A DNA stretch of 64,000 nucleotides. It comes from Arthrobacter sp. C2. Lineage in GTDB: Bacteria; Actinomycetota; Actinomycetes; Actinomycetales; Micrococcaceae. Positions within the stretch are counted from its first letter, which is position 1; each line of letters begins with the position of its first letter. Location: NCBI GenBank assembly GCA_024207135.1, contig CP042428.1, forward strand, positions 372,001-436,000, given 5' to 3'. Shown here in pieces: positions 18,966-21,008 of this stretch. The notes below the pieces were generated by a model. The model ran no database searches, was not told the DNA's origin, and was given only the letters and a program-made list of their open reading frames with translations. Made by a program: the position numbers and the translations under genes.

Positions 18966-19922
18966 TCAGTGCCAGAATCCGGCGAGCCGCCCGGCCAGCG
19001 CCCTGCCCTGCTCGCAACCGGCCCGGGCGGCGGCCGGACGCGTCGAGGGGTCCATCATGTTGTTGCCGAAGGCCTCGAGCGAACCATCATCCGGCAGGAT
19101 GGTTTCGACCCCGCTGCCGCCGGCGCGCAGCTCGTCGACCTGCACGGCCAGTCCCATGCCCCATTGCGCCGGGTGCCGGGTCCGCCCGCCGAGCGGGGAG
19201 AGGACCAGCACCCGCCCGCAACCGGCCGCCAGGTCGGCATTCTCGCTCGATCGCCGGTAGCCGCCGTCGATGAACCAGTCTTCGCCGATGCCGTAGGCGG
19301 TGGCGGCGGCACAGCTGGCGGCCACGGCGTCCACCAGGTCGACCCCGCTGTGCCTGTCGAACACGACCGGTTCCCCGGTGCGGGCATCGACCGCCGTGAG
19401 AAGCATCGTTCGCTCCGGCCAGTGCCGGACGGGCAGCCGGGCCGCGACCGTGTCGCGCCACCGCGCCTGCCCGGAAGCCTCCGACGCCGCCTCCAGCTCC
19501 AGCGCGGCCGCGCCCATCCTGCGGCGCATGTCGGCCGGGTCGGCGGCGGCGGAGATGAGTTCGCCCGTCCTGCGCAGGTGCCCGGCCGCCGATTCCGCGG
19601 CAGCGCGTCCACTGCCGGTTCCTCCGCCTGCGGTTCGTTGCGGGGGTTCGGCGGCCAGGATGTCGGCCAGCAGCCGGGCGGGGCTTGCGCCGGAGATCTG
19701 GGCCGCGGCCGTGGCACCGGCCGAGGTGCCGATGAGAACATCGGCATCGGTCACATCCAACCCGGCCGCGAGGAGGCCTGCGATGACGCCGATCAGCCAG
19801 GCGTTGCCGGCCGATCCGCCGCCGCCCAGGACCAGCGCCCGTTCGTTCGCGGTTCGTGCGGTCCGGGCGGTGTCGAGCGCGGGCAAGGTGAAATGCCTGG
19901 TGTTAAAGGGATGTGAATTCAT
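18966..19922 (-). CDS. Patatin-like phospholipase
   Basis: A 318-residue protein of the patatin family. The oxyanion motif VLGGGGSAGNAW is near residue 32, the nucleophile Ser67 is in IGTSAGAT (GxSxG), and the dyad Asp219 is in WFIDGGY (DGG). Members release fatty acids from phospholipids or acylglycerols. ATG 19922 begins MNSHPFNTRHFT; the longer frame to 20006 would overlap a 19-codon leader ORF in a different frame. The upstream 138 bases hold a promoter, that leader ORF and two competing hairpins, one of which would hide the ribosome-binding region. Confidence 0.85.
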   Translation of the reverse strand: MNSHPFNTRHFTLPALDTARTARTANERALVLGGGGSAGNAWLIGVIAGLLAAGLDVTDADVLIGTSAGATAAAQISGASPARLLADILAAEPPQRTAGGGTGSGRAAAESAAGHLRRTGELISAAADPADMRRRMGAAALELEAASEASGQARWRDTVAARLPVRHWPERTMLLTAVDARTGEPVVFDRHSGVDLVDAVAASCAAATAYGIGEDWFIDGGYRRSSENADLAAGCGRVLVLSPLGGRTRHPAQWGMGLAVQVDELRAGGSGVETILPDDGSLEAFGNNMMDPSTRPAAARAGCEQGRALAGRLAGFWH

Positions 19923-19925
19923 GGG

Positions 19926-20007
19926 AGTCGCCTTTCGCGATGTGCCTGCGGGGCGCTCCCGGTGGCGACTAGTGAGGTCGCGCGATCGTGGACTGCAGGG
20001 GAGCACC
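19926..20007 (-). promoter_or_regulatory. Two mutually exclusive hairpins, candidate translational attenuator
   Basis: In the minus-strand RNA, GGUGCUCCC (20007-19999, inside the leader ORF) can pair with GGGAGCGCC (19960-19952) over nine bases with one U-G pair. AGUCGCC (19970-19964, next to the leader stop) can pair with GGCGACU (19932-19926), which lies just before the patatin ATG. The arms interleave, so both cannot form as simple hairpins together. This is the layout of ribosome-controlled attenuators. Confidence 0.5.
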
Positions 20008-20028
20008 CACTGTGGATACTGCGTTCAT
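19969..20028 (-). CDS. Putative leader peptide upstream of the patatin gene
   Basis: A 19-codon ORF, MNAVSTVGAPLQSTIARPH, ending in TAG. It is preceded by AGGAGGTGAG five to six bases before the ATG, the strongest Shine-Dalgarno sequence seen in this window. Codons 8-10 lie in the 5' arm of one hairpin and the stop codon touches the 5' arm of another that covers the patatin translation start. The gene context suggests a cis-acting leader peptide controlling the downstream gene. The peptide is not one I recognise. Confidence 0.55.
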   Translation of the reverse strand: MNAVSTVGAPLQSTIARPH

Positions 20029-20067
20029 GGGGGACTCACCTCCTGCCGATGGTTCACGATCACCGCA

Positions 20068-20097
20068 AAAATACCACGCCGAAAAGCCGGTGCACAA
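20068..20097 (-). promoter_or_regulatory. Putative promoter of the patatin leader transcript
   Basis: On the minus strand TTGTGC (20097-20092) and TATTTT (20073-20068) are separated by 18 bases. The start would be near 20061, about 30 bases before the leader ORF. The rest of 20098-20203, between the divergent genes, shows no other feature that I can support. Confidence 0.4.
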
Positions 20098-20216
20098 CGG
20101 TGGAAGCCCGTCGGCCCCGGGGTCGGGAAGACCCCGCGCCAGGCCGGGGATTTTCCTTGTCCTTGGGGCCGGTGCATGCATAGGCGGAAGCCGTGGCCAA
20201 GACTAAGATATGCGCC

Positions 20217-21008
20217 ATGAACGAGGCGCATTCCATCGCGGTCATCGTCGCCCACCCGGACGACGATGCCTACGGTTGCGCCGGTTCCATCGCCCTGCAC
20301 GAGCACGACCCCGGGTTCAGGTTTGTCCTGGTGCTGGCCACGGACGGCGCCGCCGGGCAGATCTCCCGCGGCGTGCCGGCGACCCCGGAGACCCTGGGCG
20401 CCTGGCGCCGGGTGGAAAGCTCCAACGCCTGGAAGGCCCACGGCACCGTCCCGGTGCGGCACGAATGGCTGGGGTACGCCGACGGGCACGTCGCGGAGGC
20501 CGACTTCGAGGAGCTGGTGGCCCGGCTGCAGTCGATCCTGGAAGCCGAGCGGCCGCAGGTCGTGGCGACCTTCGGTCCGGACGGGATCACCGGGCACCGC
20601 GACCACATCGCCATCGGGCGTGCCGCCGACGAGGCGTTCCACCGCGCCAGGTGCGTGCCGGGACCCGGGTTGCGCCGCCTGGTCCACGGGGCGATCCGCG
20701 CCTCGGTCTTCGAACGCTGGAACACCGCCCGGCGGCGCGCCGGCGCCGAGGCCTGGGACCCCGGGCGCGAATACCACCTGCGACCGGTCCCGGACGAGGC
20801 CATCTACATCGAGGTCGACACCTCCGCGGTGTGCTCGCGGATCGTCGCCGGGCTGCTGGAGCACCGCAGCCAGCGCGAGGTGCTGATCGAACCGGGCGCC
20901 AGCGTGCGCCGCTGGGAACGGATGGTGTCCCGCGAGCCCGCTGTCATGGCGTGGCCGCCGCGTGCCGCCGGGCAGCCCGTGCTCGCCGACCTGTTCGAGG
21001 GGCTTTGA
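20217..21008 (+). CDS. PIG-L family deacetylase
   Basis: A 263-residue LmbE/PIG-L protein. The zinc-binding motif AHPDDDAYG (His, Asp, Asp) is at about residues 12-20 and the third ligand is in TGHRDHIAIG. Members remove acetyl groups from GlcNAc-containing compounds such as GlcNAc-inositol in mycothiol synthesis; related enzymes cut mycothiol conjugates or antibiotic precursors. No mycothiol gene neighbours are seen, so the substrate is open. TAAGAT at 20204-20209 is seven bases before ATG 20217, consistent with leaderless transcription. Confidence 0.82.
   Translation: MNEAHSIAVIVAHPDDDAYGCAGSIALHEHDPGFRFVLVLATDGAAGQISRGVPATPETLGAWRRVESSNAWKAHGTVPVRHEWLGYADGHVAEADFEELVARLQSILEAERPQVVATFGPDGITGHRDHIAIGRAADEAFHRARCVPGPGLRRLVHGAIRASVFERWNTARRRAGAEAWDPGREYHLRPVPDEAIYIEVDTSAVCSRIVAGLLEHRSQREVLIEPGASVRRWERMVSREPAVMAWPPRAAGQPVLADLFEGL

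Follow-up and report, generated by a model that had tools for sequence, protein, structure and literature searches.

Upstream of a patatin-like phospholipase gene in Arthrobacter sp. C2 lies a short open reading frame (ORF) whose surroundings can pair in alternative ways. The question raised by this locus is whether the resulting RNA leader controls the gene and, if so, what it senses. The locus is on the minus strand of a stretch of 64,000 nucleotides (nt) (assembly GCA_024207135.1, contig CP042428.1, positions 372,001 to 436,000), which we call the window and whose own numbering is used below. Our preferred answer, with a probability of about 0.47, is that the leader would be a translational attenuator that does not depend on its peptide and senses ribosomes detained at the leader start. 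Its elements are as follows.

20097-20092 and 20073-20068, minus strand: promoter-like pair TTGTGC and TATTTT, spacing 18 nt, the -10 box lying 30 nt upstream of GGAGG in the leader Shine-Dalgarno sequence
20061-20055, minus strand: 5' arm of helix P1, GAUCGUG, coinciding with the predicted RNA 5' end
20044-20035, minus strand: leader Shine-Dalgarno sequence SD1, AGGAGGTGAG; together with the stretch reaching to the start codon it forms segment 1
20028-19969, minus strand: leader ORF of 19 codons plus TAG (ATG 20028-20026, TAG 19971-19969), translated as MNAVSTVGAPLQSTIARPH
20008-19999, minus strand: segment 2 (A arm), GGGUGCUCCC, within the leader ORF; partner of segment 1 (helix P0) or segment 3 (helix P2)
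19990-19984, minus strand: 3' arm of P1, CACGAUC, with alignment, arm-swap and covariation evidence
19981-19977, minus strand: 5' arm of helix P3, GCGAC, at the end of the leader ORF
19970-19964, minus strand: 5' arm of helix P4, AGUCGCC, overlapping the leader stop codon, with arm-swap support
19969-19965, minus strand: 3' arm of P3, GUCGC, from alignment A1 (42 patatin leaders)
19960-19951, minus strand: segment 3 (B arm), GGGAGCGCCC; partner of segment 2 (P2) or segment 4 (helix P6)
19936-19931, minus strand: patatin Shine-Dalgarno sequence SD2, GAAAGG, kept in the class consensus sequences and in alignment A3 (71 diverse leaders of all classes)
19932-19923, minus strand: segment 4 (C arm), GGCGACUCCC, between the patatin Shine-Dalgarno sequence and ATG; 3' arm of P4 and P6
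19922-18966, minus strand: patatin-like phospholipase gene, 318 amino acids (ATG 19922-19920), the putatively regulated gene

The order on the RNA, 5' to 3', is P1 5' arm, SD1, leader start, segment 2, P1 3' arm, P3 5' arm, leader stop, P3 3' arm with P4 5' arm, segment 3, segment 4 with SD2, and gene start. P0 pairs the leader ribosome-binding site and start with 20010-20001. P2 is GGUGCUCCC/GGGAGCGCC, nine pairs that can be extended to ten (20008-19999 with 19960-19951), P4 is AGUCGCC (19970-19964) with GGCGACU (19932-19926), and P6 pairs 19960-19952 with 19932-19923. A preliminary description of this DNA had reported the promoter pair, the Shine-Dalgarno sequence, the 19-codon ORF and two hairpins (P2 and P4), and every one of these is located on the minus strand where it was placed. 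P1 (20061-20055 with 19990-19984), P0 and P6 had been overlooked.

We propose that the patatin mRNA 5' leader may act as a translational attenuator with four alternating segments, in which 1:2 and 3:4 compete with 2:3. Segment 1 would be the leader ribosome-binding site and start, segment 2 would lie about 20 nt into the ORF, segment 3 (GGGAGCGCC) just past the stop, and segment 4 would overlap the patatin ribosome-binding region. In the default state, which is predicted by folding and consistent with conservation, 1:2 would be clamped by P1 and, with 3:4 also formed, the patatin start region would be closed. A ribosome held at the leader start or on the first two to three codons (for example, by an inhibitor of initiation or early elongation) would cover segment 1 and leave segment 2 free. 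Pairing 2:3 would then form as the RNA emerges, segment 4 would stay free and patatin would be translated. A moving ribosome would erase 2:3 and finish at the stop just before segment 3, and the closed state would return. The peptide sequence would be irrelevant and the signal would be the dwell time at the start. We infer the direction of the ON state, the kinetic trapping of 2:3 and the stress signal.

Conservation of the leader in relatives

From the window alone, no hairpin exceeds chance. The fold of the window sequence is unremarkable (z -0.29, or z -1.82 if it begins at the predicted RNA 5' end), a helix of at least nine pairs is present in 24% of 300 dinucleotide shuffles, and the three helices of at least seven pairs are close to the mean of 2.69 in shuffles. 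It is conservation and covariation in relatives that raise the first helix, P2, far above chance.

The 228 loci compared consist of 38 of the 43 titled loci found by the patatin protein, these 38 having the leader, 28 of 30 loci from the family search, two genus loci, and 160 regions picked among the matches listed by the family, order and class searches, not every listed match being taken. Five of the titled loci have no leader within 420 nt; the patatin loci left out as lacking a visible leader are L042, L063, L066, L068 and L070. L088 and L090, near contig ends, were also left out. Arm-swap and later analyses exclude L208 (a false positive), L261 (another acetyltransferase), L173, L186, L195 and L207, which leaves 222 loci, 221 with a leader start; the set includes duplicates (L031/L091 and L039/L083), and the relatives are not independent. 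Protein clustering divides the loci into five classes by the gene behind the leader: patatin (PAT), rifampin monooxygenase (ROX), acetyltransferase (GNAT), alpha/beta hydrolase (ABH) and PrmC-like methyltransferase (PRMC).

P1 and P2 are mutually exclusive and both covary. In A1, P1, P2 and P3 are paired in 90-95% of cells (P1 90%, P3 93.7%), and seven of 23 pairs show double changes (two of five in P3), a count that none of 500 shuffles reaches. For P1 and P2 in A3, 14 of 19 pairs show double changes (62 double-change cells, 0/500 shuffles), with slid controls giving 5-11 pairs. Here P2 is paired in 94% of cells and P1 in 79% (six pairs) and 55% (three pairs), and all nine P1 pairs show double changes in some sequence. 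For P1 with P4 and P6, the double-change cells number 85 (0/500 shuffles). The central G columns of SD1 are invariant in all 42 leaders of A1 and all 71 of A3.

Arm swapping compares the median pairing energy of own arms with that of arms from another class and of shuffled arms (own/other/shuffled, in kcal/mol). For P4 these are -13.1/-7.6/-6.9 in PAT (113 loci), -15.2/-11.1/-7.4 in ROX, -13.1/-11.1/-8.9 in ABH and -13.3/-11.4/-8.9 in GNAT; the poor column alignment of this helix is due to a register that differs by class. The P1 values are -20.4/-15.6/-13.7 in ROX, -21.5/-15.9/-13.8 in GNAT and -17.8/-15.3/-14.0 in ABH. P6 gives own and other medians of -20.3 and -16.1 in GNAT, -18.2 and -16.1 in PAT, and -20.3 and -18.6 in ROX. 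P0, between SD1-to-start and segment 2, beats shuffled arms in every class (-14.9 to -18.7 versus -9.3 to -10.3). Own P3 medians are weaker than shuffled in four of five classes, the test windows not having bracketed its arms, and P3 rests on A1.

The reading frame is kept as well. Of 221 loci, 215 have their first in-frame stop 7-20 nt upstream of segment 3, compared with 5-7% in shuffles and 0-33%, by class, in the other two frames. The architecture, the exclusivity and covariation of P1 and P2, the spacing, and selection on frame and stop are supported by these comparisons. A ligand- or protein-binding regulatory RNA with an incidental ORF would account for the strong nucleotide-level conservation, which includes codon third positions, but not for a frame and stop kept so far above the 5-7% expected. 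The genes behind the leader also share no obvious metabolite, and no Rfam 15 model matched the leader in window positions 19700-20300 or in the 24 other loci scanned, the list for the window showing just a chance miRNA model (E 0.98). We give this explanation very little credence.

In five leader sets, GNAT being left out, differences from the commonest codon within the final 11 codons were counted separately for codon positions 1/2/3. The counts are 93/135/110 in PAT leaders of 19 codons (65 leaders), 77/76/78 in those of 17 codons (29), 26/59/54 in ABH (41), 8/9/3 in 19-codon ROX (10) and 40/37/39 in 19-codon PRMC (12). No third-position excess was found in these five sets. In addition, patatin leader tails occur in two frames on the same RNA, TIARLx-UAG or SRxRD-UGA, both ending at the same place. 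The start and stop of the leader ORF are under selection, and the peptide, to judge from these sets, is not selected as a peptide. The preliminary description had proposed looking in relatives for conservation of both pairing and peptide: the arms of the first helix do covary, but the peptide shows no such selection. Its comparison with erm-type control gave the leader peptide an importance that is not supported, given the lack of peptide selection, the tail in two frames and the AUU/AUC starts of 20 of 21 PRMC leaders. An erm-type attenuator with a drug-specific arrest peptide would share the predicted topology of 1:2 and 3:4 versus 2:3, and ABH leaders often have a TWVL..GVTVGR-like peptide in common. 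The codon-position counts and the tail read in two frames run counter to it, and the arrest-peptide idea was rejected on those counts; we regard such an attenuator as highly improbable.

Start codons are specific to the class: AUU (14) or AUC (6) in 21 PRMC leaders, GUG in 41 of 55 ABH leaders and AUG in 101 of 113 PAT leaders. PRMC leaders with AUU or AUC at the start position behind a strong Shine-Dalgarno sequence include L112, L137, L170, L212, L280-L282, L286, L287, L289 and L291. The AUU/AUC frames may well be translated, since 18 of 20 end at the proper stop position. These observations suggest a sensor of initiation fidelity or ribosome supply, in which the leader start would compete for 30S subunits and initiation factors, its codon would set the threshold, and products of the IF-1 type would close a feedback loop; an IF-1 gene does follow in all 15 acetyltransferase loci. 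This idea overlaps with the attenuator that we prefer and accounts for only part of the gene set, and the use of AUU/AUC is itself putative. As a separate explanation it is improbable.

A -10-like TANNNT is present 20-46 nt upstream of SD1 in 84 of 113 PAT leaders (13% when shuffled), 18/18 ROX, 15/15 GNAT, 52/55 ABH and 19/21 PRMC. The shuffled rate is 5-18% over the classes, and the commonest position is 30 nt except in PRMC. From its position, the RNA 5' end would therefore lie at or beside the P1 5' arm, which in the window means near 20061. A transcription start downstream of 19970 had been named in the preliminary description as fatal to its reading; the conserved -10 box points instead to a start well upstream. 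A promoter scan with a strict consensus rule found none in the window, though TTGTGC/TATTTT is present and the -10 box is conserved in relatives. The WblC box has been described as GAAAWY, 3 nt upstream of the -35 element, in the available text of PMC7157823. Its GAAA core occurs about 62 nt 5' of SD1 in 17 of 18 ROX, 10 of 15 GNAT and 27 of 55 ABH leaders (17, 15 and 6% when shuffled). The full GAAAWY is found in 4/113 PAT, 0/21 PRMC, 1/18 ROX, 3/15 GNAT and 19/55 ABH leaders and is absent from the window.

Ribosome position and folding

The fold of the complete leader favours the closed state. Mean probabilities in ROX are 1.00 for P0, 0.95 for P4 and 1.00 for P6, and those in PAT are 0.72 for P0, 0.63 for P6 and 0.16 for P4 (113 leaders). 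P1, P0, P3 and P6 are formed in the minimum-energy fold of the window sequence and P4 is not, its 3' arm being paired with GGGAGCGCC. The second hairpin of the preliminary description, P4, overlaps the leader stop and is backed by arm swapping, but is absent from this fold and improbable in patatin leaders at large.

The nascent RNA, ending after segment 3, behaves differently according to where the ribosome is. Probabilities of 2:3 (113 PAT, 18 ROX, 15 GNAT, 55 ABH and 20 PRMC leaders, n=221) are given in this class order. They are 0.26, 0.00, 0.00, 0.03 and 0.52 without a ribosome; 0.93, 0.91, 0.91, 0.87 and 0.91 with a ribosome on the leader start; and at most 0.03 with it at codon 4, 8 or 13. 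The window RNA gives 0.00 without a ribosome and 0.86-0.88 with one at the start. When the footprint is varied from +13 to +17 (25 of 113 PAT, 24 of 55 ABH and all ROX, GNAT and PRMC leaders), the value for the start codon stays at or above 0.86 except in ABH at +17 (0.57), and values for codons 2-3 depend on the footprint. Counted from the leader start, the first base of segment 2 falls at a median of +20 in PAT (range 16-32) and +19 in the other classes (13-19), just clear of an initiating ribosome.

The minus strand shows no terminator-like site between 18900 and 20300, and no U run follows P6 in the class consensus sequences. Attenuation would therefore be translational and not transcriptional, and terminator-based attenuation was rejected. 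What the preliminary description took for alternating helices with a leader ORF beside a masked ribosome-binding site thus holds in its outline: frame and stop are kept, the leader is conserved, the first helix covaries and the strand has no terminator-like site.

A number of results count against an attenuator that responds to ribosomes at the start. To begin with, the release of segment 2 once segment 1 is covered is built into the footprint model. At equilibrium and with the RNA complete, 2:3 rises only to 0.34, 0.00, 0.01, 0.11 and 0.60 (PAT, ROX, GNAT, ABH, PRMC) when a ribosome sits at the start, and the cost of opening the downstream start falls by only 0.7, 0, 0, 0.1 and 2.0 kcal/mol. 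Since this effect is small, the ON state would have to be kinetic. A ribosome at the stop cuts the same cost by 1.1, 2.4, 1.7 and 2.0 kcal/mol in PAT, ROX, GNAT and ABH (0.4 in PRMC), and one over segment 2 does so by 1.3 kcal/mol in ABH. With the ribosome at the leader stop, nascent 2:3 still reaches 0.59 in PAT, 0.47 in ROX, 0.57 in GNAT, 0.32 in ABH and 0.34 in PRMC, although the helix would need to close around the ribosome.

The helices themselves are unevenly supported. Column counts for the masking helices P4 and P6 are modest: the 18 double-change pairs of P1, P4 and P6 together are reached in 47 of 500 shuffles, and a slide of -1 still gives 17 pairs (77 cells versus 85). Arm swapping supports the two in most classes, but P6 fails in ABH (own -16.6 versus swapped -18.5) and P4 is without support in PRMC (-8.3/-7.6/-8.4). 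P1 does not discriminate in PAT (-16.7/-15.9/-10.2) and is at most weakly supported in PRMC (-15.0/-13.7/-12.6). Own and swapped P2 arms are about equal in PAT, ABH and ROX, own arms are weaker in GNAT (-17.8 versus -20.5), and in PAT and PRMC the swapped P0 arms pair more strongly than the own ones. Finally, the GAAA element is missing from 103 of 113 patatin leaders, the window included (present in 10), and occurs in only one of 21 PRMC leaders.

The effect of a ribosome at the stop suggests a termination-coupled leader. Here a pause at the stop would cover the P4 5' arm and open the downstream site, and the same or a following ribosome would start patatin; the leader would then be an enhancer or coupling device, off if it is not translated. 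The kept position of the stop relative to segment 3 (215 of 221 loci) fits this. So do the abolition of P4 by a ribosome at the stop (0.00-0.08 in PAT, ROX, GNAT and ABH), the lower opening cost in four of five classes and the persistence of nascent 2:3 at 0.32-0.59. The idea that leader genes raise expression through reinitiation has been published (PMC4833913, in its available text). Coupling leaves no evident role for the covarying 2:3 helix or for the pairing of segment 2 with the leader start, however, and the effect in PRMC is 0.4 kcal/mol. We keep it as a serious, if rather unlikely, alternative because at equilibrium a stop ribosome lowers the opening cost more than a start ribosome in four of five classes.

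Genes behind the leader

The leader is not a patatin-specific device. The preliminary description had suggested leader control of a patatin lipase; a leader does precede the patatin, but this view was too narrow, with at least five kinds of gene downstream. The next gene in the 228 loci is patatin in 115 (111 clustered, three with a poorly called ORF and one interrupted locus), ABH in 56, PRMC in 22 (21+1), ROX in 18, GNAT in 15 (14+1), another acetyltransferase in one and a false positive in one. Family libraries were searched with one to three members of each class. The patatin of the window matches Pfam PF01734 (E 1.4e-9), and GTSAG and DGG motifs can be read from its sequence. One tested member each of ROX (L105, NF033145, 819.6 versus 800) and of the methyltransferases (L137, TIGR03704, 426 versus 249) passes its NCBIfam cut-off. 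Pfam supports the FAD-binding monooxygenase (L128), GNAT (L106), IF-1 (L108) and the methyltransferase (L212). Members of ABH are so named from record annotations and one weak Pfam match, to Hydrolase_4 in L109 (L132 has none), and the class includes at least one misplaced flavin monooxygenase (L193).

In all 15 GNAT loci the IF-1 gene follows the acetyltransferase, forming a two-gene unit behind the leader (L106, L108, L115, L120, L130, L136, L214, L217, L228, L231, L232, L236, L237, L238 and L241). Some rifampin monooxygenases have an N-terminal extension which by eye resembles the first 30-40 residues of an alpha/beta hydrolase behind the same leader (L110 versus L111). It looks as though the leader and first codons had moved onto a new gene.

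The same switch probably operates in relatives for rifampin monooxygenase, alpha/beta hydrolases, acetyltransferase with IF-1 and PrmC-like methyltransferase. The signal is most likely translation stress, because of this set of genes, part of which lie under WblC/WhiB7-like promoter elements. Some leader copies may belong to the translation-stress (WblC/WhiB7) regulon, and most patatin copies would then depend on the leader alone. A wider conjecture, which we consider unlikely although worth stating, is that the leader could be a general, class-wide gauge of ribosome dwell at the start codon. It would switch on detoxification enzymes, extra IF-1 and a release-factor-type methyltransferase and be tuned by its own start codon, the AUU/AUC version sensing initiation fidelity.

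Within the genus, patatin is present in eight of 15 genomes and the leader in seven; one genome (G008) has the patatin and no leader match. The patatins of three same-genus genomes are 84-87% identical to that of the window. The window's own genome has a single leader copy, the next match being at E 0.57. Two covariance models were used, R1 built from the 42 patatin leaders and R2 from the 71 diverse leaders. With R1, the family search gives matches in 62 of 245 genomes at E 0.01, and those of order and class give 57 of 396 and 122 of 394 genomes at E 0.001, with a maximum of four per genome. With R2, 17 of 396 genomes in a phylum sample match at E 1e-4, all 17 in the window's class, the share of the sample outside that class being unstated. 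Plasmids carry the leader with patatin in Arthrobacter sp. ERGS1:01, with rox in Streptomyces sp. SAT1 and Embleya, and with annotated alpha/beta hydrolases in several Streptomyces.

Individual genomes show some further arrangements. In one genus genome (G004; L079, L007:2592-3821), an insertion with an IS110-type transposase gene splits the leader and first patatin codons from the rest of the gene. A Micrococcaceae genome (G108, contamination estimate 4%) has four leader matches; of three inspected, two precede patatin (L087 and L161) and one a PrmC-like gene (L172). PRMC copies also occur in other Micrococcaceae loci (L170, L173 and L289, in addition to L172), and one of these genomes, G023, carries a patatin copy too.

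Known leader systems and neighbouring features

In erm-type translational attenuators (ermC and relatives), a short leader ORF accompanies four alternating segments, and a ribosome stalled on segment 1 frees the downstream ribosome-binding site. The present leader shares the short ORF and, by folding alone, the predicted topology of 1:2 and 3:4 versus 2:3. It differs in having no selected arrest peptide, in its predicted trigger (a ribosome that has got no further than the start or the first two to three codons), in genes that are not rRNA methylases and in the extra clamp helix P1 from the predicted RNA 5' end. The leader would work like the erm type but without a selected arrest peptide, and is not a terminator-based attenuator. 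The mgtL/mgtA leader controls transcription in response to Mg2+ and proline supply; it also combines a leader ORF with alternating helices, whereas no terminator-like site is found here. In infC, an AUU start codon serves autoregulation. The AUU/AUC starts of PRMC leaders may likewise read initiation fidelity, although here the unusual codon is in the leader ORF and in infC it is in the factor's own gene.

Among published actinobacterial examples, as far as the available texts describe them, Streptomyces ABCF genes have short upstream ORFs (uORFs) at which peptidyl-transferase inhibitors cause start-codon arrest. Such uORFs precede the ARE5 ABCF genes are5sc and tiaA, and one is three codons long (PMC12421871). 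A terminator/anti-terminator is proposed there, whereas the strand here has no terminator-like site and the element predicted to be masked is the ribosome-binding site. The uORF control of whiB7/wblC answers translation inhibitors (PMC10727445, PMC7157823). Part of the non-patatin copies here have a WblC-like element upstream, but whiB7 is described as terminator-controlled and most patatin leaders lack the element. The S. lividans leader peptides named in the available text of PMC8079986 are of amino-acid types. A search confined to open-licence PMC text turned up no description of this element, nor any paper about a leader upstream of patatin or rifampin monooxygenase genes.

These results indicate a large actinobacterial leader-RNA family whose scanned members have no Rfam match. 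Patatin, rifampin monooxygenase, alpha/beta hydrolases, IF-1 and a PrmC-like enzyme would be joined in one predicted translation-stress response. If true, a leader ORF would be able to signal how long ribosomes linger at its start codon, with no part played by its peptide. Inducible tolerance in soil actinomycetes would become easier to explain, and little-studied enzymes would gain candidate functions.

The patatin was also considered as an anti-phage effector and rejected: the PADLOC match is just E 7e-4 over 38 residues, and phmmer at E 0.001 gives no relative among solved structures. In Arthrobacter sp. ERGS1:01 (L144, NZ_CP012477.1) the leader-patatin unit lies within a flagellar gene cluster on a large plasmid. 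In the window, a divergent PIG-L family deacetylase gene (20193-21008, plus strand) has its intergenic region in common with the patatin leader.
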